Below, one piece after another: positions 34,093 through 59,894 of a DNA stretch of 64,000 nt (the stretch's first letter is position 1; each line of letters opens with the position of its first letter). The notes below the pieces were generated by a model. It ran no database searches. It had not been told where the DNA came from and was given only the letters and a program-made list of their open reading frames with translations. This stretch comes from a virus: IMG/VR virus record IMGVR_UViG_3300037261_000082, positions 36,178-100,177 of that record, one strand, 5' to 3'. A program made the translations under genes and the position numbers.

Positions 34093-34094
34093 CT

Positions 34095-34364: not shown

Positions 34365-34365
34365 T

Positions 34366-37393: not shown

Positions 37394-37399
37394 TAGCAG

Positions 37400-47518: not shown

Positions 47519-48154
47519 ATGGTAGCCCGCGTAAAACTTAAGACCAAGCCCGCTAAACTCGAGAAGAAGCAATCTTATCCGGGGGCTAGGCGTGGGCCGA
47601 AGTCTACGTACCTCCCTCAATTTGCTAAGGTAGCCGGGGTACTGTGTTCGCGGGGTGCAACAAATGCGGACCTAGCAGACGCTTTTAGTGTTACCACAAT
47701 GACCATCCAGAATTGGATGGGTATGTACCCAGAATTTGATGAAGCAGTAAGGCGGGGCAAGGCTGAGATATTTGACCCCAAGGTGGAGCGTGCTCTTGCC
47801 CAACGGGCGTTAGGCTACTCAGTAGACACTGAGGAAATACGTGTGCTTAAGGACGGCGAGGTTATTCGTGTGCCTGTCCGAAAGCATTATCCCCCAGAAA
47901 CTCTTGCGTGTATTTTCTGGCTTAAGAACCGCAAGCCGGAGCAGTGGCGTGATGTGCAGAACCATCTACATTCAGGCAAGGTTGAGAATTTGACAGCAGC
48001 TGAGTTGTTGGCTGAGATACGGAAGGATGCTACTGAGTTGGGCATTCTTCCGGAGGCACTATTGCATGCTGGTGTTGTTCCGTCTGTAAAAGGCAATCGT
48101 TCAGGTAACGGATTGAGCAACGGCAATGGTGCAAACGGAAGGACTAAGCATTGA
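47519..48154 (+). CDS. terS: Small terminase-like DNA-binding protein
   Basis: 211 residues. A helix-turn-helix segment (GATNADLADAFSVTTMTIQNWMGMYPEFDEAVRRGKAEI) followed by VERALAQRALGYS and a C-terminal assembly part. This is the usual terminase small-subunit pattern with an HTH and a homeobox-like recognition helix. It lies two genes upstream of the large terminase; TnpB has been inserted right at its end and overlaps its stop codon. Confidence 0.8.
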   Translation: MVARVKLKTKPAKLEKKQSYPGARRGPKSTYLPQFAKVAGVLCSRGATNADLADAFSVTTMTIQNWMGMYPEFDEAVRRGKAEIFDPKVERALAQRALGYSVDTEEIRVLKDGEVIRVPVRKHYPPETLACIFWLKNRKPEQWRDVQNHLHSGKVENLTAAELLAEIRKDATELGILPEALLHAGVVPSVKGNRSGNGLSNGNGANGRTKH

Positions 48155-49371
48155 TTCTAACTTACAAATATCGTCTGCTTCCTTCTAAGCGTCAGCATCG
48201 CGCGCTAGAAGAGATTCTAGAGGCGCAACGTATTTTATATAATTCTGCTTTAGAAGGTAGGATTTGGTACTATAAAAATACTCGGCAACTTCTTAGTCTT
48301 TTTGATCAGACAAAAGAGTTGACTATCTGCCGTCGAGAAATGCCAGAAATGGCGGCTATTCCTACAACAATTCAGCGTTGGACGCTGAAGCATCTTGACT
48401 GGGCTTATCGAGGATTTTTTCGTAGAATTCGCAAAGCGCACAAAACTCCTGGCTTTCCGCGTTTCAAAAGTTATTACCGGTGGCGGTCTTTTGGTTTTAA
48501 CCAGACTGTTGGCAGTTTTCGTTTTGGAGACAACAACCATATTGGTTTTAAAGGCTTTCCAGGTTGGATTCGTATCCATTATCATAGACCTCTGCCTAAA
48601 AAGGCAGATGTTAAGTCTTGTAGCTTTACAAAGGATACTAAAGGTTGGTATATTACTTTTCAGATTAAGTTAATTGAAAAGACTAAATGTACGATTTCGT
48701 CTGCTGTTGGGATTGATCTTGGCTTAAAAGTTTTTGCTTATCAGTCTGATGGAGTAATTATTCCAAATCCAAGAGTAGCACGTAAGGCTGAAAAAGAAAT
48801 GAGGAGGAGACAACGTGCTTTAGCGCGTTGTAAGAAAGGTTCTAAACGGCGAATAAAAGTGCGGGTTAGTTGTACAAGATTGAGTGCTTCAGTCACTAAT
48901 GCTAGAAATACTTGGTTACATCAGCAGTCGGCTCGTATTGTTAGATCTTACGATCTAATTGCGGTTGAAGATTTGAATGTAAAAAATATGCTTCAAAATT
49001 CTACATTTGCACGTTCAATTTCGGATGCTTCTTGGTCGGGGTTTCTAACCTTTCTCGCTTACAAGGCTGAAAGAGCTGGTAAGTACTTAGTTAGGGTGGA
49101 TCCTAAAAATACAACTAAAAAATGTTCTGGTTGCGGAGAGTTGGTTCCCAAGGCTATACTGGAGAGGACCCATTCTTGTCCTGAGTGTGGTCTAACTTTA
49201 GATAGGGACCATAATGCAGCTAGGAACATCTTAGCGGTCGTTGCGGATCGCGGAGAGCATAACGTGGCCCAGTGGGGCGAGCGTGCTCTCGGAAACCTCA
49301 GTTTGGCCTCTAGCCAAAGTTCGAGACGTAACCTTAGTCTTGCCGTTACTAAAACTAGCAACAAACATTAA
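48151..49371 (+). mobile_element. tnpB: Lone TnpB RNA-guided nuclease gene
   Basis: 406 residues from a TTG that overlaps the terS stop. RuvC acids: Asp189 (GIDLGLK), Glu273 (AVEDLNVKNM), Asp353 (RDHNAARN). Zinc ribbon: Cys325/328/343/346 (CSGCG, CPECG). The start, MILTYKYRLLPSKRQ, is full length for IS200/IS605 OrfB. No TnpA transposase lies beside it. It is AT-rich compared with terS. TnpB cuts DNA at a guide-matched site next to a TAM. It probably persists by copying through cleavage and repair. Its omega-RNA is expected at the 3' end. Confidence 0.92.
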
Positions 49372-49749: not shown

Positions 49750-49910
49750 ACGTCCTTCTTCATGACTGGCGTGGACCGCGCATGGTCGCCCTTAAATGGT
49801 TGTCACTAAGTTGGGACTGGGGATGTTGGCACTATCACATTGATCGCTGGGGCTGTGTCATAATGCTTTGGGTCTGGGAAAAGGACGAGCACCCCCTTGA
49901 AGATGTATAA
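49746..49910 (+). CDS. 54-residue Trp-rich protein
   Basis: GTG start overlapping the CSP stop, with its own stop overlapping the terminase start (TAATG). Seven or more Trp residues (DWGCWHYHIDRWGC, MLWVWEKDE) and two Cys. Resembles small Trp-rich phage proteins. The tight couplings on both sides make translation likely. Confidence 0.5.
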   Translation: MNVLLHDWRGPRMVALKWLSLSWDWGCWHYHIDRWGCVIMLWVWEKDEHPLEDV

Positions 49911-51634
49911 TGAGTGTTGCTGCCCCCGCCATTTCAAAGACCATCCCCGCTGAGCGCCTTACAGCATTCAGGGATAAGCTTGCGCGCTATGCCGTAGTGG
50001 AGGCTAAGGAGCGTTGCGAGGACTCTCTTATTGAGTTTCTGCAAGCTGCATGGCCTTACATAGATGCTTCTGCCTATCAGCCTTCATGGGCAATAGAAGC
50101 CATGTGCGACCACCTTGAGGCCGTGACATTAGGGCAGATCCCACGTCTACTAATCAACGTTCCACCCCGTTGTGCTAAGACTTCTTTGTGCTCCATTATT
50201 TACCCAGCATGGACTTGGGCTAGATCAGAAATATCCTTTCTGAGTGGCCGTCAAGTGCGGTTTCTGTGTGCTAGTTATGGCCATGCACTTTCCTTAGACA
50301 GTTCTAATAAGTCGCGGCGGCTATTGCAAAGCCCTTGGTACCAAAAACACTGGCCTGGTCAGATTACATTTCAGCCCGATCAAAATACCAAGATGCAATT
50401 TGACAATACAGCCGGTGGTTCACGCATAGCAACTTCTGTTGGGGGAAGTTTGCTCGGAATTGGCGGCGATATTTTGATAGCCGACGATTTGAATAATACT
50501 GAACAGGTGGAGTCTGAAGCTGAGCGGATGACAGTGGCTAATTTCTGGAATGAGTTCCACTCCACGCGCCTTAATGATCCAAAGCGGTCGGCTATTATTG
50601 CTATTCAACAGCGTTTGCATGAGCAGGATGTATCAGGACTAATTCTAGATAGTGATGAGGATTGGACGCATTTAATGATCCCCATGCGTCATGATGAGGC
50701 TCGTCATTGTGTTACCGTTAAGCTTCCTCAATATGACGACAACGAACCTTGGTCTGATCCACGTATTGATGAAGGTGAGTTGATGTGGCCTGAACGGTTT
50801 GGTGAGACTCAGGTGCGGTCTCTCGAAACTGCCCTTGGCCCATATATGGCAGCCGGTCGTCTTCAACAAAGCCCTACGCCGAAAGGTGGTGGTATTATTA
50901 AGCGTGAATGGTGGCAGCCTTGGGATCAACAGGAGGCCCAGCGTTATGGGTTAGAGTGGACCGGGGAGCGTAAGGAGTTTCCACAGTTTGAATTGGTAGT
51001 AGGATCACTCGATACTTCTTATGGCGAGAAGCAGGAGAATGACTACAATGCCTTGACGGTGTGGGGCGTCTGGATTGATCGTAATAAAAATAGACGTGCT
51101 ATGTTGATGTTTGCCTGGGCTAAGCGGTTGCCCCTACACGGCAAGGTAATATCTGCGTTGCCTAATGAAGCCAAGGTCAATTTTGAGCAGCGCCAGCGAG
51201 AACAGTTTGGGTTAATTCAATGGGTTGCGGATACGGCAAAAAGGTATAAGATTCGACGGTTGCTGATTGAGAATAAGACGCGAGGGCGTGATGTGGCTAA
51301 TGAGATCAACCGTCTTTATGCAAGAGAAAATTGGGGTGTAGAATTATTGGATCCGGTTGGGGATAAGGTGTCACGTACTCATTCAGTTGTGCCCTTGTTT
51401 ACCGATAACGTGATTTGGGCACCGGATACAAAATGGGCAGATGCTGTAATTGCAAATAGTCAAAGTTTTCCGAAGGCTGCGCATGACGATTTGCACGATA
51501 CCGTAACTCAGTTTCTCAATTGGTCCCGGGAGAACGGAATTTTGTTGAGGGGTGATGAGATGAGTGCTGCACTAGAAGACGAACAAGCGTATAAGCCGCC
51601 TCAAGATTCAGTAGCACGAATGTATGGGGTCTAG
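49910..51634 (+). CDS. terL: Large terminase subunit (packaging ATPase/nuclease)
   Basis: 574 residues. ATPase: variant Walker A VPPRCAKTS at 84-92, Walker B DILIADDL, and coupling motif region. C-terminal RNase H-like nuclease with GSLDTSYGEKQENDYNALTVWG, LLIENKTRGRDVA and PKAAHDDLHDTVTQFLNW. Cleaves concatemers and drives DNA into the procapsid through the portal encoded at 60192. Separated from that portal by the 7.6 kb small-gene island, where most phages have the two side by side. Confidence 0.95.
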   Translation: MSVAAPAISKTIPAERLTAFRDKLARYAVVEAKERCEDSLIEFLQAAWPYIDASAYQPSWAIEAMCDHLEAVTLGQIPRLLINVPPRCAKTSLCSIIYPAWTWARSEISFLSGRQVRFLCASYGHALSLDSSNKSRRLLQSPWYQKHWPGQITFQPDQNTKMQFDNTAGGSRIATSVGGSLLGIGGDILIADDLNNTEQVESEAERMTVANFWNEFHSTRLNDPKRSAIIAIQQRLHEQDVSGLILDSDEDWTHLMIPMRHDEARHCVTVKLPQYDDNEPWSDPRIDEGELMWPERFGETQVRSLETALGPYMAAGRLQQSPTPKGGGIIKREWWQPWDQQEAQRYGLEWTGERKEFPQFELVVGSLDTSYGEKQENDYNALTVWGVWIDRNKNRRAMLMFAWAKRLPLHGKVISALPNEAKVNFEQRQREQFGLIQWVADTAKRYKIRRLLIENKTRGRDVANEINRLYARENWGVELLDPVGDKVSRTHSVVPLFTDNVIWAPDTKWADAVIANSQSFPKAAHDDLHDTVTQFLNWSRENGILLRGDEMSAALEDEQAYKPPQDSVARMYGV

Positions 51635-51637
51635 GTT

Positions 51638-51838
51638 ATGAAGAAGCTTCCCTGGCGTGTGCGGGTTAGGTTAGTTGTAGAAGGTTGGGTAGATATAGAA
51701 GCCTCTACTGCAAGTATTGCAGAAGTAGAAGCGGCTAAGCTGCCTAATGTTATTTCTGTATTTAGGGCATCAGCTACTTTAGCAAATAAGGTGGCAGGAG
51801 CAGAAGCACCAGCCGGTGTGCAAGAAGATTTATTTTAG
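51638..51838 (+). CDS. Small hypothetical protein after terminase
   Basis: 66 residues, starting 3 bp after the terminase stop. Val/Ala-rich with VEGWVDIEASTASIAEVEAAKLPN, a small beta-alpha unit. Its stop meets the stop of the leftward island array exactly (1 bp gap). Function unknown. Confidence 0.55.
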   Translation: MKKLPWRVRVRLVVEGWVDIEASTASIAEVEAAKLPNVISVFRASATLANKVAGAEAPAGVQEDLF

Positions 51839-51958
51839 TTAGTGTTGAGTAGATCGATAATCCCAAGACCATGATGCGCGATATGGAAAACAACGGCGTG
51901 TAGTAGCCCCTTGGTTCCGCTGAATTTCATTCATCGCATTGATCTGAGTGAGCGTCAC
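51839..51958 (-). CDS. Island microgene L1, 39 residues
   Basis: GTG start after AAAGGCCGATT. Sequence starts MTLTQINAMNEIQRNQG and ends in an aromatic-rich tail (FPYRASWSWDYRS). Last gene of the leftward array; its stop abuts the stop of the rightward gene at 51838. Confidence 0.45.
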   Translation of the reverse strand: MTLTQINAMNEIQRNQGATTRRCFPYRASWSWDYRSTQH

Positions 51959-51996
51959 AATCGGCCTTTGATGTTGAAAGTTATAGGTTAGCGCGT

Positions 51997-52245
51997 TCAG
52001 TTGTCGAGATAGTGGCTCTTTGGGCGCTTACATGGCCCGAGATATTCCCAGCCGCGCCGTGCAAGTTCTTGTGGCGTAATCGGCTGTGCCTCTCCGATGC
52101 AATGCCACACATTTCCAAGCCACTCTGCTATTCCAGGCTTGCTTGATCGCTCAGAATGAAGCCAATGGTAGGCATCCATATTGAGCATGTCGGCGGGTGG
52201 CCAGGTTCCTGGCATCGTGTGCATTGCGGTTTTGCGCAGCGACAT
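51997..52245 (-). CDS. Island microgene L2, 82 residues
   Basis: ATG after TAGAGGCCACCAA. Contains MDAYHWLHSERSSKPGIAEWLGNVWHCIGEAQPITPQELARRGWEYLGPC, a Trp/Cys-rich sequence typical of small phage proteins. The longer frame to 52353 lies within the next gene and is less likely. Confidence 0.5.
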   Translation of the reverse strand: MSLRKTAMHTMPGTWPPADMLNMDAYHWLHSERSSKPGIAEWLGNVWHCIGEAQPITPQELARRGWEYLGPCKRPKSHYLDN

Positions 52246-52255
52246 TTGGTGGCCT

Positions 52256-52411
52256 CTACTGTTCCAAAGCTTCACGCGCGATCTTGCGCATTTTCCACGT
52301 CTGAGGCTCATCAACAATCGCGGTGAGGACCGCTCGCAACCGCTGACATTCAACTATGGCGTCAGCGAGCGTCATTCGGCCATATCTGATCTGTGCTTCT
52401 GCGGCTTCCAT
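52256..52411 (-). CDS. Island microgene L3, 51 residues
   Basis: ATG after GAGGACGGGCA. Helical: MEAAEAQIRYGRMTLADAIVECQRLRAVLTAIVDE ... KIAREALEQ. No family recognised. Confidence 0.5.
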   Translation of the reverse strand: MEAAEAQIRYGRMTLADAIVECQRLRAVLTAIVDEPQTWKMRKIAREALEQ

Positions 52412-52458
52412 TGCCCGTCCTCAGTTGTTCGGTTTGAATAAGCGGAATCCTGTGACAA

Positions 52459-52689
52459 CTAATTGCCGCAACAAAAGTCGCAGCACGATTGATCGGGTTT
52501 GCAGTAGGCGCGGTTCGGTTTTTCCTCAGTCGGGCCACCCGCGTCGTTGTTCTCGATCAGGTCCGCTATGGCCTCAGCCTCAGTCGCCCCGGTGCCGGTC
52601 ACGCCTTCCTCCATCCCGTCATAGTACGCCAGCCAATCAAAGCGGCGGATCGGGATCGGCGGATAGACATACTCGGTGACGATTTTCAC
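52459..52689 (-). CDS. Island microgene L4, 76 residues
   Basis: GTG after AATAGGCCCGCC. Starts MKIVTEYVYPPIPIRRFDW, then GTGATEAEAIADLIEN, and ends with a Cys cluster (YCKPDQSCCDFCCGN) suggestive of metal binding. The N-terminal IPIRxFDWxAY pattern is common in small uncharacterised phage/bacterial proteins. Confidence 0.55.
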   Translation of the reverse strand: MKIVTEYVYPPIPIRRFDWLAYYDGMEEGVTGTGATEAEAIADLIENNDAGGPTEEKPNRAYCKPDQSCCDFCCGN

Positions 52690-52696
52690 GGCGGGC

Positions 52697-52927
52697 CTAT
52701 TTCTCCAACGCGGCGATTGCCGCATCTGCATAAATAAAACACAGGTCGCAAGCCGCAACCGGATTGTGTGGGTAGGCGCGGCGCTGCTCAGGCGTGTTCA
52801 TTGGCCACGGCTTCCCTTGGCAGTCGGGCCGCTTTGCCCAAATCGCTCGGGCGACCATTTCTCGCGGCGTGAACTTTGATTCCGTGCTCTCGTCGCCTGT
52901 TGCACTTGTAGTGTGCGAGGACAACAT
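52697..52927 (-). CDS. Island microgene L5, about 76 residues
   Basis: ATG at 52927 after GAGAGGGAA; a second in-frame ATG at 52858. Core: PREMVARAIWAKRPDCQGKPWPMNTPEQRRAYPHNPVAACDLCFIYADAAIAAL, with two Cys pairs. From 52927 it overlaps the HNH gene by 140 bp in another frame; from 52858 the overlap is about 70 bp. Confidence 0.5.
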   Translation of the reverse strand: MLSSHTTSATGDESTESKFTPREMVARAIWAKRPDCQGKPWPMNTPEQRRAYPHNPVAACDLCFIYADAAIAALEK

Positions 52928-53114
52928 TTCCCTCTCCCATATGGCCTCCGTCGCGGCGACGCTTAACGTGCTCAAAGGTTGCAAAGTCTCGCGTTGGCAT
53001 TCCGTTCGGACGGTGCTTGAGCTTCATTGGCTTCTGGCACCAGTGGCAAAGACTGCGTTGCTGGTCGAAAAGGCGCTGTCGCCAAGCATTCTTTCGTGCA
53101 GCAGTCGGAGACAT
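52788..53114 (-). CDS. Small HNH-endonuclease-like protein (L6)
   Basis: 108 residues. CHWCQKPM, FATFEHVKRRRDGGHMGEGNVVLAHYKCNRRR fits HNH nucleases (Cys pair, His in the second motif, Asn, final His). A longer tail is shared in another frame with L5. Preceded by AATAGGCACGGA. Might be a mobile or DNA-cutting nuclease within the island. Confidence 0.65.
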   Translation of the reverse strand: MSPTAARKNAWRQRLFDQQRSLCHWCQKPMKLKHRPNGMPTRDFATFEHVKRRRDGGHMGEGNVVLAHYKCNRRREHGIKVHAARNGRPSDLGKAARLPREAVANEHA

Positions 53115-53121
53115 TCCGTGC

Positions 53122-53298
53122 CTATTCTGACTTTGGAGGGGTGAGGAATTTTTCTAGGATGTAAGCCTCGATGGTTACGGAGGCGGCGGGAGAATATCCC
53201 CTGGCCTTGATCTCGATAGATTGGGTGCTGGACGGGTTTTGCAAAGCGGCCCGAACCACAGTTTTCAGCTTTTCATATTCTTCCTGCTCATAGCTCAT
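53122..53298 (-). CDS. Island microgene L7, 58 residues
   Basis: ATG after TTAGGCCCGCAAAC. Starts MSYEQEEYEKLKTVVRAAL, ends ILEKFLTPPKSE. Charged, mixed helix/strand; no family recognised. Confidence 0.5.
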   Translation of the reverse strand: MSYEQEEYEKLKTVVRAALQNPSSTQSIEIKARGYSPAASVTIEAYILEKFLTPPKSE

Positions 53299-53308
53299 GT
53301 TTGCGGGC

Positions 53309-53578
53309 CTAATCCTTCAACGCGGCTTCAACGTCCGCGAGCTTCTGTTCGACATGCGAAATCCAAGCATCGATGGCCTCAAGAACGGTTGGCTTCGGCT
53401 CGCAACTCCAGACCGTGCAGGCGCAAACTGGCTTGTCGGTTTTGGCCAGTCCGTCACAGACGATTGACGCAAGCCAATGGTCGCGCAGGACGCGGCGCAA
53501 TGGGGTAAGGGCGGCTTTGTGCTTTTCCCATGCGGCGTCGATCATCTCGTTTTCATCGGGGGTTAAGGGGCGTTCCAT
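53309..53578 (-). CDS. Island gene L8, 89 residues
   Basis: ATG after AAAGGCCCGAA. Helical (MERPLTPDENEMIDAAWEKHKAALTPLRRVLRDHW), with CACTVWSCEPK in the middle and a charged end AWISHVEQKLADVEAAL. No family recognised. Confidence 0.5.
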   Translation of the reverse strand: MERPLTPDENEMIDAAWEKHKAALTPLRRVLRDHWLASIVCDGLAKTDKPVCACTVWSCEPKPTVLEAIDAWISHVEQKLADVEAALKD

Positions 53579-53587
53579 TTCGGGCCT

Positions 53588-53785
53588 TTACTGACTGGCT
53601 AGAGGGTTGAAGATCGGCGGGTAGCTGCCGAGCGGCATTCCGGCGGCGGTAAGGCCAATGATTTCCCCATCGCGGTAGACGACTGACGGTTCCAGTTCCG
53701 ACACCCACAAGCCGAGCAATGTACGTAATGTACATTCATCGCGCCGCATCTTGGCCTCGACAGCTTGCTCGATGATGCGTTTCAC
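53588..53785 (-). CDS. Island microgene L9, 65 residues
   Basis: GTG after TAGAGGCCGCC. Sequence MKRIIEQAVEAKMRRDECTLRTLLGLWVSELEPSVVYRDGEIIGLTA. An open frame extends a few codons further to a TTG, but the GTG has the array-type leader. Confidence 0.5.
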   Translation of the reverse strand: MKRIIEQAVEAKMRRDECTLRTLLGLWVSELEPSVVYRDGEIIGLTAAGMPLGSYPPIFNPLASQ

Positions 53786-53793
53786 GGCGGCCT

Positions 53794-53958
53794 CTATTGA
53801 CAAGTTTGGGGTTGGTTTTTGAGATAGCCTCTTACGTTCTCGGCGCGAGATCGGTAATCGTTAGCCTGCTCCATCAATTTTGCGGCTTGGACCTCAAGGC
53901 GCTTTGCGGCATCCTCTAGGTATTGAGCGCGAAACTGCCAATCCTCTCGTTCTGTCAT
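53794..53958 (-). CDS. Island microgene L10, 54 residues
   Basis: ATG after TAGGCCGCAGCC. Strongly helical: MTEREDWQFRAQYLEDAAKRLEVQAAKLMEQANDYRSRAENVRG. Probably a coiled-coil oligomer; no family recognised. Confidence 0.5.
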   Translation of the reverse strand: MTEREDWQFRAQYLEDAAKRLEVQAAKLMEQANDYRSRAENVRGYLKNQPQTCQ

Positions 53959-53967
53959 GGCTGCGGC

Positions 53968-54144
53968 CTACTCTGACAATTCGCGCATGGCTATCATGGC
54001 GGCGCGGGCTAGGGTGCGAGCGTATCGCTGCGCACTTTCATCTTCCTCGGCCAGTCCGCAAACCGGCAAGGTGCTGCCCGTGTAGCGAGCGCGGTTGATC
54101 GCATTGGCAACCTTGTCCACGGCAGCATCGGTGATGGTCTGCAT
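53968..54144 (-). CDS. Island microgene L11, 58 residues
   Basis: ATG after TAGAGGCCGCCA. Begins MQTITDAAVDKVANAINRARYTGSTLPVCGLAEEDES and ends LARAAMIAMRELSE. Helix-rich small protein, function unknown. Confidence 0.5.
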   Translation of the reverse strand: MQTITDAAVDKVANAINRARYTGSTLPVCGLAEEDESAQRYARTLARAAMIAMRELSE

Positions 54145-54168
54145 TGGCGGCCTCTATATCCAGATTGT

Positions 54169-54369
54169 TCAACGCATTTCGTCGTAGTCGAGAAAGTAGC
54201 TTTCGCCGCACACATCGCAGCGGTAGCGTTCGCCCTCAAAGCCGCCGCCGACTTCCTTGAGGTTTGGACACTGCGACCAGTGACCCAAGCCCTGCGGATG
54301 GTTCGGTATCGGCGTAAACACCGGCTCGCACCCCGCACTCTTTTTCGCTGGATCGCCTTTGATCGCCAT
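54169..54369 (-). CDS. Island microgene L12, 66 residues, zinc-ribbon-like
   Basis: Ends with CPNLKEVG...YRCDVCGESYFLDYDEM: three Cys of a possible zinc ribbon plus an earlier Cys. The leader has a run of ten C on the coding strand (G10 at 54371-54380 on the plus strand), next to AAGGATT. Confidence 0.5.
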   Translation of the reverse strand: MAIKGDPAKKSAGCEPVFTPIPNHPQGLGHWSQCPNLKEVGGGFEGERYRCDVCGESYFLDYDEMR

Positions 54370-54387
54370 CGGGGGGGGGGTAATCCT

Positions 54388-54555
54388 TCAATCGTGTCCG
54401 TGTTGTTTTTGGTACTCGGCAACTTGCCGAAGAATAGCGAACGCGCCATCCGATATGGATGTGCCGGGCCAAGACAAGAGTGCTGCCACCATCGCAAGAC
54501 GGAAGCTTTCTGGCCCGTATAGGTCGGGGGCGATGCCGGGCTTACGCTTTTTCAT
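54388..54555 (-). CDS. Island microgene L13, 55 residues
   Basis: ATG after AAAGGAGCCCCG, the best classical ribosome site in the array. Sequence MKKRKPGIAPDLYGPESFRLAMVAALLSWPGTSISDGAFAILRQVAEY. No family recognised. Confidence 0.5.
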   Translation of the reverse strand: MKKRKPGIAPDLYGPESFRLAMVAALLSWPGTSISDGAFAILRQVAEYQKQHGHD

Positions 54556-54576
54556 CGGGGCTCCTTTGACAATCTG

Positions 54577-54780
54577 TTAGGCGTAGATAACGAGAGCGAC
54601 TAGACCGACAAAAACAGCGGAGCAAAGTGCGGCGGTAAATGATCCTAGCGCCCATCCGTTCACGCGGAACGTCCAGTGACTTGTCGAGTAGTCCGCGATG
54701 CTGCTGATGGCCGCCGTCGCCACGCCTACCATTAAACTGCCGACGACCCAAACTATCCAGAGTTTTACAGGCAACGGCAT
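54577..54780 (-). CDS. Island microgene L14, 67-residue membrane protein
   Basis: ATG after AATAAGGCCCGCC. Three hydrophobic segments (about 5-24, 30-50, 52-67) with a Gly-rich start, so an integral membrane protein. Possible envelope or exclusion role; not recognised. Confidence 0.55.
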   Translation of the reverse strand: MPLPVKLWIVWVVGSLMVGVATAAISSIADYSTSHWTFRVNGWALGSFTAALCSAVFVGLVALVIYA

Positions 54781-54788
54781 GGCGGGCC

Positions 54789-54965
54789 TTATTTGACAAA
54801 ATCGGTTAGGGACTTTTCCACTTCGGGCCGCGACATGATTGTGGGCTTCCCGTAGAGGATCGCTTCCGCATCAATAATTACGTCCCACATCGCGCTCATA
54901 CTTCCTACCGTAGCTGCTTTGCGTCGGGCGCGGTTGATGTGATCGACTAATTCTTGATCGGTCAT
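54789..54965 (-). CDS. Island microgene L15, 58 residues
   Basis: MTDQELVDHINRARRKAATVGSMSAMWDVIIDAEAILYGKPTIMSRPEVEKSLTDFVK. Charged helical start. The leader (ACAGATTATCAAGCC) lacks the AGGCC core. No family recognised. Confidence 0.45.
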   Translation of the reverse strand: MTDQELVDHINRARRKAATVGSMSAMWDVIIDAEAILYGKPTIMSRPEVEKSLTDFVK

Positions 54966-54979
54966 GGCTTGATAATCTG

Positions 54980-55159
54980 TTAAGCGACTCGATGGGGTAC
55001 AGGTTTGGGCGGCGCGGCAGGTCCCGGCGGAATGCCGGTCACGTCAGCGACGGCAAGATTGATGGCCGCATGAATTTCGTATTCAAGCTGATCGCGCAGC
55101 AAACCCTTGGCATATCGGTCGGCCACTTTCTTCGCCTCGGCTTGCGCGTGGAATGCCAT
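54980..55159 (-). CDS. Island microgene L16, 59 residues
   Basis: ATG after GGAGGCCGCAGCA; the frame opens slightly further upstream. MAFHAQAEAKKVADRYAKGLLRDQLEYEIHAAINLAVADVTGIPP, then Pro-rich. First gene of the leftward array, next to the divergent promoter region. Confidence 0.5.
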   Translation of the reverse strand: MAFHAQAEAKKVADRYAKGLLRDQLEYEIHAAINLAVADVTGIPPGPAAPPKPVPHRVA

Positions 55160-55269
55160 TGCTGCGGCCTCCACTAACTATCTAGACATACTGTGTTCCG
55201 AATTACGGAATAGCTTAAGCAACGTAGGTTACGCTTGATTTGTTAACCTGTAAAGCCTATTATCGTTAA
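55160..55269. promoter_or_regulatory. Divergent promoter/operator region of the island
   Basis: Contains the inverted repeat TTCCG-AATTA-CGGAA (55197-55211 region) and, rightward, TTGATT (55235-55240), 17 bp, TATTAT (55258-55263). Transcription from this promoter would begin almost at the ATG at 55270, giving a leaderless message. The leftward promoter is less clear. It is the only non-coding gap of any size in the island. Confidence 0.5.
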
Positions 55270-55836
55270 ATGGCTGTTGAAGACACCAGATCATACCTAA
55301 ATCCATTGAAACCTAGTTGGAGTGAAGTCTCTCAACGAGAGAAGCTTACTGGAGAAATATACTGTGCAGATCAGCGCGAAGCATTATTGCGATCTTTACG
55401 AAAAGGCAGTGTTGTTGAGGTAGTAGAAACTTTCTTATTGGCTAAAACAGTTGGACGTGTTGATGTTAGAAAACGTGACTTGCTGGCAATTGTTGATCAA
55501 ATTGAAAACCGAAAAGGAGTTATTCGAGAACTTGCTACAGGACATCAATCTAATATACCCAAGCAATGGCGTCAAATGCAGGCGCGGGCGTTTGCTCTTA
55601 TTTCTAGTTCTGCACGAGGAAAGAACTCCGCAGTTAATGGTAAACAATCTAAAGGCAGGCCCCATAAAACATATCATGAAGACCAACTTTCTGTTATGGA
55701 AAAAGTTTGGTTTAGTCGGCGGTACAAGACAATTGCGGAACGTATGTCTTATCTAGGCGGAATTGGGATTAAGGTAAAACGTGGGTGGATGTATAGTCGT
55801 TTTGGAACCGTTGAAAATCCCCGAGTAAAACTTTAG
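55270..55836 (+). CDS. Hypothetical protein heading the rightward array
   Basis: 188 residues. No recognised family. Basic at the C-terminus (GRPHKTYHEDQLSVMEKVWFSRRYKTIAERMSYLGGIGIKVKRGWMYSRFG) with an HTH-like last third; might bind DNA and regulate the arrays. It is AT-rich and unlike the following GC-rich microgenes, so it may be of separate origin. The start is immediately downstream of a promoter-like sequence. Confidence 0.5.
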   Translation: MAVEDTRSYLNPLKPSWSEVSQREKLTGEIYCADQREALLRSLRKGSVVEVVETFLLAKTVGRVDVRKRDLLAIVDQIENRKGVIRELATGHQSNIPKQWRQMQARAFALISSSARGKNSAVNGKQSKGRPHKTYHEDQLSVMEKVWFSRRYKTIAERMSYLGGIGIKVKRGWMYSRFGTVENPRVKL

Positions 55837-55845
55837 GAGTTTGCC

Positions 55846-56184
55846 TTGCGCGCCATAGTCTGCGGAAGCCGCAACTACAAGAATTGGGAACTGCTTTATC
55901 GCGTTCTCGATGGCCTTGGAATTACCCACGTCATCGAAGGCGGCGCGCGTGGGGCGGATAGATTGGCGAGGGAGTGGGCACAGTCTCGGCTCATTCCTAT
56001 GACGACATTTGATGCGAATTGGGACACTCACGGGAAAGTCGCAGGACAGATTCGCAATCAGCAAATGCTCGATGAAGGAAAGCCTGAATTAGTGGTGGCC
56101 TTCCCCTTGGAGAAAAGCAGCGGAACATGGGATATGGTTCGCAAGGCCAGAGCCGCTGGCGTCAAAGTTGAACTGGTTGAATAA
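55846..56184 (+). CDS. SLOG/DUF2493-like nucleotide-binding protein (R2)
   Basis: 112 residues from a TTG start after TTTAGGAG. VCGSRNYKNW, GGARGADRLAREWAQ, GQIRNQQMLDEGKPELVVAF and SSGTWDMVRKARAAG are the YspA/DUF2493 SLOG signature. SLOG proteins bind nucleotide-derived ligands; in phages some are candidate anti-defence or signalling factors. Confidence 0.82.
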   Translation: MRAIVCGSRNYKNWELLYRVLDGLGITHVIEGGARGADRLAREWAQSRLIPMTTFDANWDTHGKVAGQIRNQQMLDEGKPELVVAFPLEKSSGTWDMVRKARAAGVKVELVE

Positions 56185-56197
56185 TTAGGAGCGCACC

Positions 56198-56410
56198 GTG
56201 CATACTTGGAACCCACCCGTAGAAATGACAACAACCGCGCCGCAGGGCGTGACAGAATTAAAAACCATCATGCGCGACGATAATAAAATGGTAGGCGTAA
56301 CAAAACTTGGCCGTACCATTCGTTCTGCCCTGTCCGAACTACGCGAAATCCACACCGATCTACCTTTTGCGATATTGACCGTAATTTTATCTGATGAACT
56401 GAATAAATAG
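56198..56410 (+). CDS. Island microgene R3, 70 residues
   Basis: GTG after TTAGGAGCGCACC. MHTWNPPVEMTTTAPQGVTELKTIMRDDNKMVGVTKLGRTIRSALSELREI. Mixed charge, no family recognised. Confidence 0.5.
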   Translation: MHTWNPPVEMTTTAPQGVTELKTIMRDDNKMVGVTKLGRTIRSALSELREIHTDLPFAILTVILSDELNK

Positions 56411-56420
56411 GAGATTTTAG

Positions 56421-56516
56421 ATGGCATGGAAATGTAAGGAATGCGGGAAGCATAGCGGCGGGCCGTACTGCGATGAATGTGGAGCGCCACCGTCCTGCAA
56501 ATCAGGCAAGAGATAA
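56421..56516 (+). CDS. Island microgene R4, 31-residue zinc finger
   Basis: ATG after TAGGAGATTTTAG. Four or five Cys in CKECGKH..YCDECGAPPSC give one or two compact zinc knuckles. Too short for automatic gene calling, but the ribosome site and spacing match the array. Confidence 0.55.
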   Translation: MAWKCKECGKHSGGPYCDECGAPPSCKSGKR

Positions 56517-56526
56517 AGGAGTTTGC

Positions 56527-56724
56527 ATGACGATAGACAGCACGATGGTTCCGGCGGGTGGCACTCGCAAGGGCGATAAGGTTTACGACGCGCGAGGCCG
56601 ACTGATTGAAATCTATGAGGGCGAGTGGCGCGTCGTGGTTGATGGTGGCCGGTCAGGCTGGTGGCGTTTCAACGAACACTACGACCGCGACGGCTACTGC
56701 GACAATCCCGCCCGTGGGTACTGA
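56527..56724 (+). CDS. Island microgene R5, 65 residues
   Basis: ATG after AAAGGAGTTTGC. MTIDSTMVPAGGTRKGDKVYDARGRLIEIYEGEWRVVVDGGRSGWWRFNEHYDRDGYC; a small beta protein with several Trp. No family recognised. Confidence 0.5.
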   Translation: MTIDSTMVPAGGTRKGDKVYDARGRLIEIYEGEWRVVVDGGRSGWWRFNEHYDRDGYCDNPARGY

Positions 56725-56741
56725 ATATAGAGGAGATTTTC

Positions 56742-57086
56742 GTGTCTGCATTGGATGCGCGCCAACAGGCTTTCCGAGAAATGGATCGGGGGGTGTTCAA
56801 CATCCTCAAACTGGCGCTCGCCTATGACATGACCGATGATCTGTTTATCCAAGTCGCACACGACATTAGAACCACGCTGCCGCCGAACGCCCGCAAGGAG
56901 ATGCTGGCCTACACAAAAGAGATTGAGATTTTTGTGAGTGGCCGCCAATGGCAGAGGGGATGGTGGTTTTGCAAAAAGACAACTTGGAAGCACATCAATG
57001 CCGAGATCACCTTCAATCCGTACAAGGCAAGTTTGAGTTGCTGGACTGATCCAAAAGAACCGGGCGGAATTGTCTGCTTTCAATAG
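56742..57086 (+). CDS. Island gene R6, 114 residues
   Basis: GTG after ATAGAGGAGATTTTC. Helical start (ALDARQQAFREMDRGVFNILKLALAYDMTDDLFIQVAHDIRTTLPP) then Trp/Cys-rich end (GWWFCKKTTWKHINAEITFNPYKASLSCWTD). No family recognised. Confidence 0.55.
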   Translation: MSALDARQQAFREMDRGVFNILKLALAYDMTDDLFIQVAHDIRTTLPPNARKEMLAYTKEIEIFVSGRQWQRGWWFCKKTTWKHINAEITFNPYKASLSCWTDPKEPGGIVCFQ

Positions 57087-57105
57087 TCACAAGAGGAGAA
57101 TTGGC

Positions 57106-57336
57106 GTGCTTATCGACGATCCCAACAGTGCGAGCGGCAAGCGCGTCATCGCGGACAACCCAGGCTGCATGGCACCAGACGGCGGCGAATGCTGTCCTCA
57201 ATATCTAGCCCTCTCGCAAGAAAACGAGAGGATGCGTGAAATTCTAATTTGGCTTGATCGAGTTGGCGGACTTGGACTGGAAACTCATGGGCGCATTCGC
57301 AAGGCGCTCGGTTTCAAATCCGCTGCTGACGATTGA
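57106..57336 (+). CDS. Island microgene R7, 76 residues
   Basis: GTG after AAGAGGAGAATTGGC. MLIDDPNSASGKRVIADNPGCMAPDGGECCPQYLALSQENERMREILIWL. Two Cys pairs and a coiled helix. No family recognised. Confidence 0.5.
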   Translation: MLIDDPNSASGKRVIADNPGCMAPDGGECCPQYLALSQENERMREILIWLDRVGGLGLETHGRIRKALGFKSAADD

Positions 57337-57354
57337 ATATAGAGGAGCAAACGA

Positions 57355-57564
57355 ATGTCTGACCTTGAGGACGGTCTAGTCGCCGCAAAAAAGGCTTTGA
57401 TTGATTGTGGTTTCTGTGGTGCTGGTGAACATGGCGCAGGCGATCCTGAGATTAACTCCATCGATAGGGTTATTGGTGCGCTGCGTTCTGGTCGTCGCAC
57501 AGCAACACTTGAAATGATGGGTTTCCCAGATGCGGCATCTTTTGCAAAAGACCCAACTCAATGA
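57355..57564 (+). CDS. Island microgene R8, 69 residues
   Basis: ATG after ATAGAGGAGCAAACGA. DLEDGLVAAKKALIDCGFCGAGEHGAGDPEINSIDRVIGALRSGRRTATLEMMGFPD; Cys pair CGFCG. Overlaps the next gene by four bases. Confidence 0.5.
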   Translation: MSDLEDGLVAAKKALIDCGFCGAGEHGAGDPEINSIDRVIGALRSGRRTATLEMMGFPDAASFAKDPTQ

Positions 57565-57770
57565 GTGTGCCAATGGCCGTCAAGGTAGTCTGGGTGCTTA
57601 CGTCGATTTGGTCGGTTCACAATGCTCCTGAGCATCACTATCTACAGTTCGCTTCTCACGACGAATGTAGAGACGCTGCAATTCAAGCAATCGAAGTGGG
57701 CGGCGCAAAGTTTGCGTTCTGCACTGAGGGATACGCGACGCCACTTCAATATCTGCCGTATGAACGCTGA
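57561..57770 (+). CDS. Island microgene R9, 69 residues, exported
   Basis: ATGA overlap with R8. Hydrophobic N-terminus (AVKVVWVLTSIWSV) then HDECRDAAIQAIEVGGAKFAFCTEGYA, a signal-plus-Cys-Ala layout like the protein at 18733. Confidence 0.5.
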   Translation: MSVPMAVKVVWVLTSIWSVHNAPEHHYLQFASHDECRDAAIQAIEVGGAKFAFCTEGYATPLQYLPYER

Positions 57771-57787
57771 ATAAATAGGAGATTGTC

Positions 57788-58012
57788 GTGTCACCTGGCG
57801 AGAAGCGGCGGCGTAAAGCAAAGCGAGAGCGCGAGCAAGCAGCCTATGCCGCCGCAGTATCAGCGTTGCCGACCGGCTCTTGCTGTTGCAACTGCGCTCA
57901 TCGCGGTACGATGCCACTTTCGCGCAAACCGATCTGCACGCTCGACAGCGATTTTGCCGGCTACACAGTGGTTGAGTTGATGCACGTCTGTCCGCGATGG
58001 ACTACTAAATAA
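57788..58012 (+). CDS. Island microgene R10, 74 residues
   Basis: GTG after ATAGGAGATTGTC. Basic start (MSPGEKRRRKAKREREQA) then Cys-rich (SCCCNCAHRGTMPL ... ICTLDSDFAGYTV ... CPRW). Probable zinc-binding protein. Confidence 0.5.
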   Translation: MSPGEKRRRKAKREREQAAYAAAVSALPTGSCCCNCAHRGTMPLSRKPICTLDSDFAGYTVVELMHVCPRWTTK

Positions 58013-58024
58013 ACAGGAGCGACC

Positions 58025-58255
58025 GTGGCTGAGTATCGTTGGATTGGAGACTTCGGCGGATACGGTTGGGCTATCTGCCCCACATGCAGCGGTCGTGGTC
58101 ACTGGATTGGAGTAGCCACAACAACGGCTGCTGATTGTCGTACCTGTCACGGCAACGGAAAGGTGTCATGGGGGCGCTGGCCGAACTACAATCCAACGTC
58201 AGAGCATGATGAGGGAACGAGAATGGTCCCTCCGCCATTGGCGATAACAAAATAG
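58025..58255 (+). CDS. Island microgene R11, DnaJ-type zinc motif, 76 residues
   Basis: GTG after ACAGGAGCGACC. CPTCSGRGHW and CRTCHGNGKV are the paired CxxCxGxG motif of DnaJ central zinc fingers, here alone. Probably a zinc-binding adaptor. Confidence 0.55.
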   Translation: MAEYRWIGDFGGYGWAICPTCSGRGHWIGVATTTAADCRTCHGNGKVSWGRWPNYNPTSEHDEGTRMVPPPLAITK

Positions 58256-58264
58256 GAGTTTTTC

Positions 58265-58438
58265 GTGTGCGACTGCAAAATCTATTGCCAAGATACAGGC
58301 AACGGAGATTGCCGCTATATGGTCAAGTGTTCGAAGGGAACGCCGAAGTCTGACTTTGAGCATGTGCCGATGAAGGCCGCGATCGATGATACAGTCTACT
58401 GCATCCGCTGTGGACGGGAACTAGGTCTAGCGAATTAG
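58265..58438 (+). CDS. Island microgene R12, 57-residue Cys-rich protein
   Basis: GTG after ATAGGAGTTTTTC. CDCKIYCQDTGNGDCRYMVKC ... YCIRCGRELG: eight Cys, likely zinc-binding. The final CIRCGREL resembles zinc ribbons. Confidence 0.55.
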   Translation: MCDCKIYCQDTGNGDCRYMVKCSKGTPKSDFEHVPMKAAIDDTVYCIRCGRELGLAN

Positions 58439-58449
58439 GAGCAACCAGC

Positions 58450-58638
58450 ATGGCCGTCGATTTTTGGACCGATGTTGACCTCTACGAGCCGACTTGCGTC
58501 TTGCGCCGGTTCGGCATTGGAGATGTTCTTGAGCAGCAATGGCGCAAAGCAAAGATAGGACGGCTCGGCCACGTCGAGGGATTTTATTATGAATGGCGTC
58601 CGGTGCCGCACGTTTACGGTGAACCAAAGTCAGAATAG
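58450..58638 (+). CDS. Island microgene R13, 62 residues
   Basis: ATG after TTAGGAGCAACCAGC. MAVDFWTDVDLYEPTCVLRRFGIGDVLEQQWRKAKIGRLGHVEGFYYEWRPVPHV. Aromatic and charged. No family recognised. Confidence 0.5.
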   Translation: MAVDFWTDVDLYEPTCVLRRFGIGDVLEQQWRKAKIGRLGHVEGFYYEWRPVPHVYGEPKSE

Positions 58639-58649
58639 GAGATTGAAAA

Positions 58650-58817
58650 ATGATCTATGTGCACCCCACCAAACCGCGCGGATTAATCGCCCGTTATGCG
58701 ATGGCACCGCTGGTGTTTTTGCAAGTCCTCTACCTGCATCCGAAGAATGGCATTGGCTATGCCGCTCGTTGGGCGCGGCAGAGCACCATCGTTCCCAATG
58801 GCGTGTTCCCAAATTAG
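58650..58817 (+). CDS. Island microgene R14, 55 residues
   Basis: ATG after ATAGGAGATTGAAAA. Basic/hydrophobic: MIYVHPTKPRGLIARYAMAPLVFLQVLYLHPKNGIGYAARWARQS; possible amphipathic or membrane segment. Confidence 0.45.
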   Translation: MIYVHPTKPRGLIARYAMAPLVFLQVLYLHPKNGIGYAARWARQSTIVPNGVFPN

Positions 58818-58826
58818 GAGCCGACC

Positions 58827-59051
58827 ATGAGTATGGCAGAATATGAAATCCCGCGCCGCGTCTGCCTTGATCGAATGACGGAAGCCGAGTTGGCAATTCG
58901 CCAAGCCGTGATTGAAGTCGAGAAGGTTGGTGCAGACGTTCGACTAACTGACGCCGTGATATTGCTATCGGCTGCACAGACGCGCGTAGCTGACTACGTT
59001 GATCGTGTCCCCGGCCTACGCACTGTCCCGCAACAGCTTCAAGAGAATTAG
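58827..59051 (+). CDS. Island microgene R15, 74 residues
   Basis: ATG after TTAGGAGCCGACC. Helical: CLDRMTEAELAIRQAVIEVEKVGADVRLTDAVILLSAAQTRVADYVDRVPG. No family recognised; helical phage proteins of this size are often anti-defence or regulatory, which is not shown here. Confidence 0.5.
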   Translation: MSMAEYEIPRRVCLDRMTEAELAIRQAVIEVEKVGADVRLTDAVILLSAAQTRVADYVDRVPGLRTVPQQLQEN

Positions 59052-59061
59052 GAGCGCAGAC

Positions 59062-59166
59062 ATGAGCCGCAGCGATACCGCGATAGTGGCCTACGCTATT
59101 TTTGTCGGCATCAATATGTTGGGGCTGTGTGGTATGCTGTATTTTCGGTTTACGATAGCCAACTAA
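59062..59166 (+). CDS. Island microgene R16, 34-residue TM peptide
   Basis: ATG after TTAGGAGCGCAGAC. MSRSDTAIVAYAIFVGINMLGLCGMLYFRFT; one TM helix. Confidence 0.45.
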   Translation: MSRSDTAIVAYAIFVGINMLGLCGMLYFRFTIAN

Positions 59167-59176
59167 GGAATTACAG

Positions 59177-59296
59177 ATGCGCGAGGCTCACGACATACCG
59201 TTTAAGGGCTGGATACCGCTCAACGCTTTTCTGTGGGTGGCCGCTGGCGCTGCGATCTGGCTTGCGCTGCCTTACATCATCAGGCCGTTTATTTAG
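59177..59296 (+). CDS. Island microgene R17, 39-residue TM peptide
   Basis: ATG after TAAGGAATTACAG. MREAHDIPFKGWIPLNAFLWVAAGAAIWLALPYIIRPF; one TM helix. Confidence 0.45.
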   Translation: MREAHDIPFKGWIPLNAFLWVAAGAAIWLALPYIIRPFI

Positions 59297-59307
59297 GGGC
59301 AAATTCC

Positions 59308-59481
59308 GTGGTCACGAAAGAAGAATGGGACGCGCTAGATAAGAAAGTTAAATCGTGGCTCGATTTTCGCTGCCAACGCGAGCTAGAGGAATCTGCAAAG
59401 CGGGTGAAAGATGCGGCGCAGAAACTTCACGATGATCTGCGGCCCGATCCAGAGATTCTACGAAAGCCGACAACTATTTAA
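59308..59481 (+). CDS. Island microgene R18, 57 residues
   Basis: GTG after TTAGGGGCAAATTCC. Highly charged helix MVTKEEWDALDKKVKSWLDFRCQRELEESAKRVKDAAQKLHDDLRP. Last member of the rightward array; no family recognised. Confidence 0.5.
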   Translation: MVTKEEWDALDKKVKSWLDFRCQRELEESAKRVKDAAQKLHDDLRPDPEILRKPTTI

Positions 59482-59678: not shown

Positions 59679-59894
59679 ATGGATTTCAAATCCGTAACTA
59701 GTAGCAATATTGATGCTGTAGCTCATGATCCGAAAACAAACACTCTCCATGTGCGTTTCAAAGGTGGCGGTGTTTATGCGTATCAGGGTGTTGATGCAGA
59801 AAAACATGCAGCCCTGATGAATGCTGCTTCAGTTGGTTCATATTTGCATGCCCACATCAAGGGCAAACATGCACACTCGAAGATGGATGGGTAA
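59679..59894 (+). CDS. KTSC-domain small protein
   Basis: 71 residues. SVTSSNIDAVAHDPKTNTLHVRFKGGGVYAYQGVDAEKHAALMNAASVGSYLHAHIKGKH is a clear KTSC domain. Function unknown. Paralogue of the leftward gene at 60-278. Preceded by GAAAGGGTTGCATA. Confidence 0.85.
   Translation: MDFKSVTSSNIDAVAHDPKTNTLHVRFKGGGVYAYQGVDAEKHAALMNAASVGSYLHAHIKGKHAHSKMDG

Follow-up and report, generated by a model that had tools for sequence, protein, structure and literature searches.

Accessory hotspots and the morons of tailed-phage structural operons hold small foreign genes of unusual composition that lie between conserved virion genes and vary among relatives. Morons typically comprise one or a few genes, have a promoter and terminator of their own that make their expression independent of the operon around them, and usually encode host-interaction or counter-defence products. 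In cluster K mycobacteriophages, the start-associated sequence (SAS), a short asymmetric repeat with the consensus GGGATAGGAGCCC, lies at the ribosome-binding position of numerous small, non-structural genes that are unrelated to one another; it is conserved past the bases that pair with the 16S rRNA, and the upstream stop codon sometimes lies within it (PMC3203893; PMC12699233).

Re-annotation of the window (the whole stretch of 64,000 nucleotides analyzed here) revealed about 33 tiny genes in two back-to-back operons, inside the DNA-packaging gene cluster of an uncultured phage whose host, judging only from homologues, is probably rhizobial. The block resembles morons of structural operons in placement, composition and variability, but comprises some 33 genes in two divergent operons. 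We conclude with moderate confidence that these operons form a horizontally assembled, moron-like accessory block, set in a hotspot between the large terminase gene (terL) and the portal gene.

Gene content of the two arms

The re-annotated block has 15 leftward genes (51997-55159) and 18 rightward genes (55270-59481). The sequence-only reading had the divergence from a gap of about 110 bp, the coordinates and the packing right. It had counted about 34 genes: the 18 rightward ones stand, and the 16 leftward ones become 15 unless a doubtful ORF (52362-52538), which overlaps a better one, is included. Some of the left-arm starts listed here were picked with the start motif in view.

51839-51996, no strand: left block end, where the left arm and the terminase operon converge; no evident terminator
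51997-52245, minus: left gene 15, 82 aa; start context AGAGGCCACCAA-ATG
52256-52411, minus: left gene 14, 51 aa
52459-52689, minus: left gene 13, 76 aa with a C-terminus rich in Cys; start motif TAGGCCCGCC-GTG
52697-52927, minus: left gene 12, 76 aa; overlap with the HNH gene, position of the start uncertain
52788-53114, minus: left gene 11, HNH protein, 108 aa (PF01844 1.3e-5, phrog_338 2.8e-9)
53122-53298, minus: left gene 10, 58 aa; start motif TTAGGCCCGCAAAC-ATG
53309-53578, minus: left gene 9, 89 aa, 4 Cys
53588-53785, minus: left gene 8, 65 aa; start motif ATAGAGGCCGCC-GTG
53794-53958, minus: left gene 7, 54 aa; start motif GTAGGCCGCAGCC-ATG
53968-54144, minus: left gene 6, 58 aa; start motif ATAGAGGCCGCCA-ATG
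54169-54369, minus: left gene 5, zinc-type protein, 66 aa; homologues, purifying selection
54388-54555, minus: left gene 4, 55 aa
54577-54780, minus: left gene 3, membrane protein, 67 aa; start motif TAAGGCCCGCC-ATG
54789-54965, minus: left gene 2, 58 aa; lacks the start motif
54980-55159, minus: left gene 1, 59 aa; start motif GAGGCCGCAGCA-ATG

The right arm reads:

55270-55836, plus: right gene 1, highly basic protein of 188 aa (net charge +17), GC3 0.28
55846-56184, plus: right gene 2, SLOG (YAcAr) protein, 112 aa (PF10686 2.5e-15)
56198-56410, plus: right gene 3, 70 aa
56421-56516, plus: right gene 4, 31 aa, two CXXC motifs
56527-56724, plus: right gene 5, 65 aa; near-invariant family C-terminus GWWRFNEHYDRDGYCDNPARGY
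56742-57086, plus: right gene 6, 114 aa
57106-57336, plus: right gene 7, 76 aa
57355-57564, plus: right gene 8, 69 aa
57573-57770, plus: right gene 9, 65 aa; lacks a Shine-Dalgarno
57788-58012, plus: right gene 10, 74 aa, 6 Cys
58025-58255, plus: right gene 11, DnaJ-type CXXCXGXG zinc protein, 76 aa (PF00684 5.6e-4, under the Pfam cut-off)
58265-58438, plus: right gene 12, 57 aa, 7 Cys
58450-58638, plus: right gene 13, 62 aa
58650-58817, plus: right gene 14, 55 aa
58827-59051, plus: right gene 15, 74 aa
59062-59166, plus: right gene 16, single-TM peptide, 34 aa
59177-59296, plus: right gene 17, single-TM peptide, 39 aa
59308-59481, plus: right gene 18, 57 aa

These frames are real genes. On the minus strand of the left arm, 12 tandem ORFs of at least 45 aa cover 2,596 of 3,342 bp, a value that none of 200 shuffles reached (mean 777, maximum 2,114 bp). 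On the plus strand of the right arm, 11 ORFs cover 2,495 bp (shuffle mean 643; 0 of 200), and the result was the same when a Shine-Dalgarno sequence was demanded. The strands opposite to both arms showed no such enrichment in the same shuffle test. Purifying selection was detected in three block gene families, namely those with usable homologues. Most frames lack homologues and have weak coding scores under the phage model, as might be expected of chance ORFs within a degraded insert; against this, the tiling, the position of the start motif at the starts and the purifying selection make that explanation extremely improbable, and the comparison of the tiling with shuffles rules it out. An assembly chimera is also unlikely, because the identical sequence is present in a second IMG/VR contig (L002/L042).

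As had been noticed from the sequence, only the HNH and SLOG proteins are clearly recognizable: they are the only block proteins above the Pfam cut-off (PF01844, 1.3e-5; PF10686, 2.5e-15). The SLOG protein belongs to the YAcAr family, with 56.5 bits against a gathering score of 28.2; its profile matched none of the PDB sequences. For 30 of the 33 proteins, Pfam, PHROGs, NCBIfam and PADLOC gave no convincing family match. Ten of the 33 contain CX2-4C motifs, and three or four have a hydrophobic segment. A protein of the right gene 5 family (GWWRFNEHY) is modeled as small and beta-rich (pLDDT 76); a search of 385 genomes of the class, run without a positive control, gave no match to this family.

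A dedicated anti-defence island, close to the store of anti-defence or host-takeover factors suggested by the sequence-only reading, is compatible with the anatomy that we favor. The size, packing and variability of the genes recall known clusters, the SLOG protein might bind nucleotide signals, and the phage has hypermodified-thymine genes and thus already invests in DNA protection. However, Pfam, PHROGs, NCBIfam and PADLOC placed no block protein in an anti-CRISPR, anti-restriction or other anti-defence family (the PADLOC matches to PtuB, 0.0024, and PDC-S64, 0.0039, are weak), and most of the proteins match nothing. None of the analyses lent support to an anti-defence or host-takeover role, and a dedicated island is a rather doubtful proposition.

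The two arms are separated by an AT-rich gap with inverted repeats:

55160-55269, no strand: divergent control region, GC 0.41
55196-55210, no strand: operator-like inverted repeat TTCCG-AATTA-CGGAA, single copy in the window
55226-55249, no strand: operator-like inverted repeat AGGTTA-N12-TAACCT, single copy in the window
55235-55263, plus: sigma-70-like match TTGATT-17-TATTAT ahead of the right arm (9/12)

The number of sigma-70-like matches in the region is not above chance, and promoter and terminator matches of the block are not clearly above those in shuffles. An Rfam search found no RNA family. Right gene 1 is a candidate regulator; homologue searches gave none for it, and its structure model (pLDDT 43) is uninformative.

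The terminase-portal junction in related phages

The block is flanked by conserved backbone genes, of which the 66-aa gene and the KTSC gene lie just outside it:

49910-51634, plus: large terminase, left backbone flank (tblastn against named phage terminases; relatives)
51638-51838, plus: 66-aa backbone gene, left hotspot border in relatives (homologues)
59679-59894, plus: KTSC backbone gene, 71 aa, right hotspot border in relatives (PF13619 2.3e-21)
60192-62747, plus: portal (head-to-tail connector), right backbone flank

We compared about 65 related terL-portal loci, some of which share a contig. The gap between the two genes ranges from a slight overlap to 8.6 kb. Nearly all of the longer gaps hold rightward microgenes. 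The statement that terminase and portal are normally neighbors applies to distant relatives only; the two genes overlap in Roseobacter phage CRP-902. Homologues of the 66-aa gene (42-50% identical) occur in L029, L033, L032, L040, L035, L003, L034 and others, and those of the KTSC gene in at least eight relatives. The borders are thus conserved while the contents differ among relatives, which bears out the suggestion that this junction is an insertion hotspot.

Microgenes between terL and portal are nothing unusual in this group, since near relatives have them there as well. The arrays of the related IMG/VR phages L031, L043, L045 and L008 (and, more distantly, L052 and L072) are rightward and have the same place and gene sizes, and in near relatives also the same bordering genes as the present block. 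Unlike in the block, their genes mostly overlap, leftward genes number none or one or two, and the start contexts in near relatives are not stereotyped. The leftward array was not found in any relative. Discrete junctions of 5-25 nt, the tight packing noted from the sequence, make up 28 of the 29 counted in the block, against 10 of 70 in relatives, where 42 of 70 overlap (Fisher 3e-15 and 2e-9). What is unusual for the group is the leftward operon and the linker style, not the microgenes themselves.

The block could also be a local version of the relatives' array, with differences that arose by drift in one lineage. Relatives do hold microgenes at the identical place, the SLOG gene is common to L031 and L038 at the same junction, and right gene 1 (55270) has phage-like codon use. 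However, the linker style, start signals, GC3 and leftward operon are all distinct, and SLOG is the only block content shared with relatives at the junction. We regard this as unlikely. Another array, on L127 (IMGVR_UViG_3300022687_000002), carries a GWWRFNEHYDRDGYCDNPARGY gene like the block (the right gene 5 family is present in L121-L127); gaps of 14-29 nt separate its genes, and its stereotyped linker resembles TAAGGCCGGAGGCTCGA-ATG. It differs in having six or seven genes, a single direction and another consensus, and the stretch read held no terL or portal match.

Composition and start signals

The GC and codon scans showed the predicted shift from the phage core, strongest in the left arm. 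GC is 0.565 in the left arm, 0.513 in the right arm, 0.409 in the divergent gap and 0.495 in the remaining window. GC3 is 0.62 and 0.55 in the left and right arms against 0.44 in the other small genes of the phage, a contrast that is somewhat inflated because this control set was selected by the phage codon model. That model fails on the left arm, where a phage-trained gene finder called no genes.

Each arm has its own start signal, AGGCC(C/G)GCC-RTG on the left and (A/T)TAGGAG on the right. Junction similarity is 6.15 in the left arm (versus 4.71±0.11) and 6.55 in the right arm (versus 4.54±0.08), and is absent downstream of the starts in both; in the relatives' arrays it is 4.45-4.93. The left signal extends past Shine-Dalgarno pairing: with the Shine-Dalgarno masked, similarity is 5.50 on the left and, more weakly, 4.85 on the right, against 4.43±0.14 for core genes. 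The left motif occurs seven times in the left arm and 10 times elsewhere in 2 x 100 kb. The right motif, which is close to an ordinary Shine-Dalgarno sequence, has 12 copies in the right arm, none in the left and 34 elsewhere in the genome. Among viral contigs, the right-arm junction pattern matched the phage itself and gave 15 further single matches, none of which had homologues of note.

Three accounts of the junctions were rejected. Gene duplication does not explain them, as no block paralogues were found below E=0.03 and the sequences downstream of the starts are dissimilar. Universal three-frame stop linkers fail, because none of the 13 left-arm junctions and only 3 of the 17 on the right have stops in every frame. 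Common C-terminal codons are not a general feature (positions -40 to -19 are at the null, and only a few pairs match).

As with the SAS, many unrelated genes have the repeat at most a few nt from their starts, and it is conserved past the Shine-Dalgarno. The right-arm signal ATTAGGAG is like GGGATAGGAGCCC, the left-arm signal less closely so. By eye, none of the listed block junctions matched GGGATAGGAGCCC with two or fewer mismatches, so the block signal is SAS-like in its working and not the cluster K element. The SAS also differs in its actinobacterial hosts and consensus; the block has two signals, one per divergent operon, and its left signal, unlike the SAS, is nearly confined to one arm.

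Origin of the block and its meaning

The detectable homologues other than SLOG are single and come from other phages or genomes, partly rhizobial, which indicates that the content is mosaic. Left gene 5 has homologues in Rhizobium phages RHph_N2/RHEph18, Pseudorhizobium, Rhizobium daejeonense, a Mesorhizobium plasmid and virus contig L112, and left gene 15 a weak one in Rhizobium phage RHph_Y68. Concatenated left- and right-arm proteins found almost nothing in 297 Hyphomicrobiales genomes. In this donor search, which also took in INPHARED phages, no source with several consecutive block genes appeared, which leaves acquisition as one piece a conjecture. No integrase, att repeats or terminators were detected at the block edges. 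No integrase family occurs in the block and the junction repeats are short and imperfect, unlike an integron or site-specific cassette array.

Relatives keep tiny genes at this hotspot, but the different build and arm-specific start signals suggest that the block was probably acquired. The proposal of block acquisition from the sequence-only reading therefore holds for the entry of foreign genes into a hotspot (content, codon use, linkers and start signals) and falls short on a single identifiable source, given the SLOG gene of L031 and L038, the lone homologues and the differences in signal and GC3 between the arms.

Those differences raise the possibility of two acquisitions, with the left operon arriving whole from a source of high GC that was probably rhizobial, the right array growing locally and the two meeting by chance at the gap. 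The start motifs of the arms are mutually exclusive, their GC3 differs (P=0.03), rhizobial phage and genome matches come from left-arm proteins only, and the SLOG gene shared with relatives is on the right. Against this, the discrete linkers are found in both arms, cross-arm junction similarity is slightly raised (5.05 versus 4.68±0.07, with one 16/16 match), and the sharing of a control gap that bears inverted repeats is in keeping with a single unit. We consider two acquisitions a possible, though less probable, history.

Under the accessory-block reading that we favor, the junction would be a site of microgene gain and loss between the 66-aa and KTSC genes, with both operons read outward from one AT-rich control region. 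Each arm may have been assembled from genes already bearing its start-associated sequence, and every gene added would bring its own translation start. The block would be switched from the divergent region, probably early, as the left operon opposes the late packaging operon. The products may, more tentatively, be small host-interaction or counter-defence factors. A more speculative and rather improbable extension is that the arms are modular cassettes, each accepting genes flanked by its own start-associated sequence. That sequence would offer landing homology to recombination and would also be the start signal read by a dedicated factor, so that a single divergent switch would govern two translation-tagged gene sets. 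The basic 188-aa protein (55270), acting at the divergent region, would be an example of such a factor.

The terminase-portal junction of this large group of uncultured phages is a place to seek accessory genes. SAS-type sequences, whose role is unexplained in mycobacteriophages, now appear in a probably rhizobial phage in a two-motif form, which makes a role in translation versus gene exchange testable by comparison. An arm-specific motif could also reveal real microgenes missed by codon-based gene finders, as the whole left arm was here.

Coding capacity of the microgene block

Between the large terminase gene (terL) and the portal gene, the window carries:

51638-51838, 66-aa gene, backbone border
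51997-55159, minus strand, left arm of the block
55160-55269, divergent gap
55270-59481, plus strand, right arm of the block
59679-59894, KTSC gene, backbone border

In the left arm, tandem ORFs form a chain that covers 2,596 of 3,342 bp of the minus strand; in the right arm, the plus strand has such a chain over 2,495 of 4,221 bp. Neither span was reached in 200 shuffles, and the opposite strands were at chance level; this tiling test is independent of the start motif. For the block genes with homologues, we compared divergence at codon positions 1/2/3. The SLOG gene (55846-56184) differs from locus L031 by 0.43/0.31/0.74 changes per codon, the 65-aa right gene 56527 from L121 by 0.22/0.25/0.58 and the left zinc-protein gene 54169 from L112 by 0.25/0.15/0.47, and all three are under purifying selection. 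The microgenes are therefore real genes, as the sequence-only reading had held. Its count of 18 rightward genes stands; against its 16 leftward genes we count 15, with one further ORF (52362-52538) doubtful. When trained on genes of the phage itself, a gene finder made no calls in the left arm and few in the right; training on Mesorhizobium genes let it recover nine left-arm genes.

The junction between terminase and portal

The source record has 100,177 bp (the window is bases 36178-100177), and the phage genome is probably a circle of about 100,050 bp, because a second contig joins the record's end to its start through a 127-bp overlap at 100% identity. No near-identical named phage was found in INPHARED, and terminase identity to named phages is at most 38%; IMG/VR relatives are 55-79% identical in terminase and 64-76% in portal. 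In six relatives (L029, L007, L045, L061, L064 and L080) inserts divide the terminase matches near residues 90, 190 or 187-220, which points to introns or inteins.

The terL-to-portal distance is 8.6 kb in this phage. Near relatives have distances of 5.3, 4.6, 4.0, 2.7, 1.8, 1.5 and 0.9 kb, and L052 and L072 have 8.2 kb. In many distant relatives the two genes lie between overlap and a few hundred bp apart; they overlap in the cultured Roseobacter phage CRP-902 and flank five small genes in a Manatee Spring phage. Near relatives keep the 66-aa and KTSC genes as borders, with rightward microgenes inside. Leftward genes are rare there (one each in L043 and L098, two each in L052 and L072), and SLOG is the sole block gene seen at the same junction (L031, L038). 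With distance varying and content differing, the junction behaves as an insertion hotspot.

A TnpB gene (48151-49371; OrfB_IS605, Cas12f1-like TNB domain) lies between a possible small terminase gene and terL; no TnpA partner was seen.

Linkers, start signals and the divergent gap

Leaving aside the overlapping left-arm HNH/52697 pair, 28 of 29 same-arm junctions in the block measure 5-25 nt, with no overlaps; of 70 junctions in the arrays of near relatives, 42 overlap and 10 fall within that size range. GC is 0.565 in the left arm (GC3 0.62) and 0.513 in the right (GC3 0.55), and other small genes of the phage have a GC3 of 0.44, a control set that was chosen by the phage codon model and inflates the contrast. 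The difference in GC and codon choice from flanking genes noticed earlier holds to that extent.

Each arm has its own start signal. In the right arm, (A/T)TAGGAG or a close variant precedes the genes; in the left arm, AGGCC(C/G)GCC or a close variant sits immediately before the starts. Compared in pairs, the 40 nt upstream of starts have a mean similarity of 6.15 in the left arm vs a coding null of 4.71±0.11, and 6.55 in the right vs 4.54±0.08; the first 40 nt downstream are at null, as is the stretch from -40 to -19 overall. With the Shine-Dalgarno match masked, the values are 5.50 (left) and 4.85 (right), and core genes with a Shine-Dalgarno give 4.43±0.14. In 2 x 100 kb the right motif turns up 46 times, 12 of them within its own arm and none within the left arm. 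For the left motif (AGGCC[CG]?GC) the count is 17, seven of them on the coding strand of the left arm. A caution on these start-signal results is that the motif was spotted before testing and that some left starts were chosen with it in view.

The nearest described case is the start-associated sequences of cluster K mycobacteriophages (PMC3203893); their role still awaits proof by experiment (PMC12699233). Stereotyped starts occur in only a few of the 45 microgene runs from the fetched loci (L127 9.37, L052 6.3, L102 6.0; null about 4.7). In L127 the context is TAAGGCCGGAGG-N5-ATG and close forms; L127 6807-8586 and L145 621-2475, the same contig, hold an array of six or seven small genes joined by linkers of the TCCAACTAAGGCCGGAGGCTCGA-ATG kind. 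In the arrays L052 1787-9968, L072 1792-9950 and L102 3346-5909, start contexts recur, for example GGGGAGAAAGAGTG-ATG or AAGGAGGGTGAGTG-ATG. Each array encodes several MDIVERLR...AADEIERLRE proteins that are related to one another, and duplication may therefore account for part of the start similarity in L052 and L102.

A few junctions share long stretches of DNA. Those at 56421 and 57788 are identical over 18/18 nt, left junction 53114 and right junction 58650 over 16/16 nt, and 53298 and 52689 have 24 nt in common with few differences. At 56421/57788 the upstream genes, as read from the sequence, stop in different frames within the shared DNA, which fits DNA-level exchange there, a handful of cases being no general rule.

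The gap has a GC of 0.41. Its two inverted repeats, TTCCGAATTACGGAA and AGGTTA-N12-TAACCT, occur nowhere else in the window; each by itself is weak evidence, because such matches appear somewhere in 6-7% of shuffled windows and both were first noticed by eye. Promoter-like matches were not above chance. The first right gene (55270) encodes a strongly basic 188-aa protein, for which no homologues were found, and is a candidate regulator of the gap.

Origin and possible role

Two Rhizobium phages (RHph_N2, RHEph18), genomes of Pseudorhizobium and of Rhizobium daejeonense, a Mesorhizobium plasmid and a virus contig of 61% GC encode homologues of the zinc protein. For the 51997 protein there is a weak homologue in another Rhizobium phage, RHph_Y68. 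These matches suggest a rhizobial host. The 56527 protein, with its near-invariant C-terminus GWWRFNEHYDRDGYCDNPARGY, is present in L121-L127, where no other block gene adjoins it. For other block genes little was found in phages, 297 Hyphomicrobiales genomes or viral contigs. With homologues so scattered, the content is a mosaic. No donor block was found, which is weak evidence because the concatenated queries reach close relatives only.

Two of the 33 block proteins pass Pfam cut-offs, SLOG YAcAr and HNH, the two already recognised from sequence; a third resembles DnaJ zinc repeats, and none matches an anti-defence family. Elsewhere in the window we note:

10522-13373, leftward gene pair, putative SbcC/Rad50-type ATPase and its Mre11-type nuclease
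22370-23620, protein containing numerous SQLxSQL-type repeats in tandem
31486-38473, genes probably for thymine hypermodification: ADDT (PF18724, above Pfam cut-off), two HMUD-kinase-like proteins (below), thymidylate synthase
34321-35982, HMUD-kinase-like protein split, apparently within its P-loop (NG / SGKTT), by an intein with HNH endonuclease
39969-42548, uracil-DNA-glycosylase domain fused to family A DNA polymerase and its 3'-5' exonuclease

Given the hypermodified-thymine genes and the lack of anti-defence matches, a counter-defence role for the block is a plausible hypothesis. The original observation was right. Its reading as foreign acquisition is mostly right, given the hotspot, composition, linkers and start signals, and is corrected from a single block to mosaic content. 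New here are the comparison of the hotspot across relatives, the statistics on linkers and the two arm-specific start signals.
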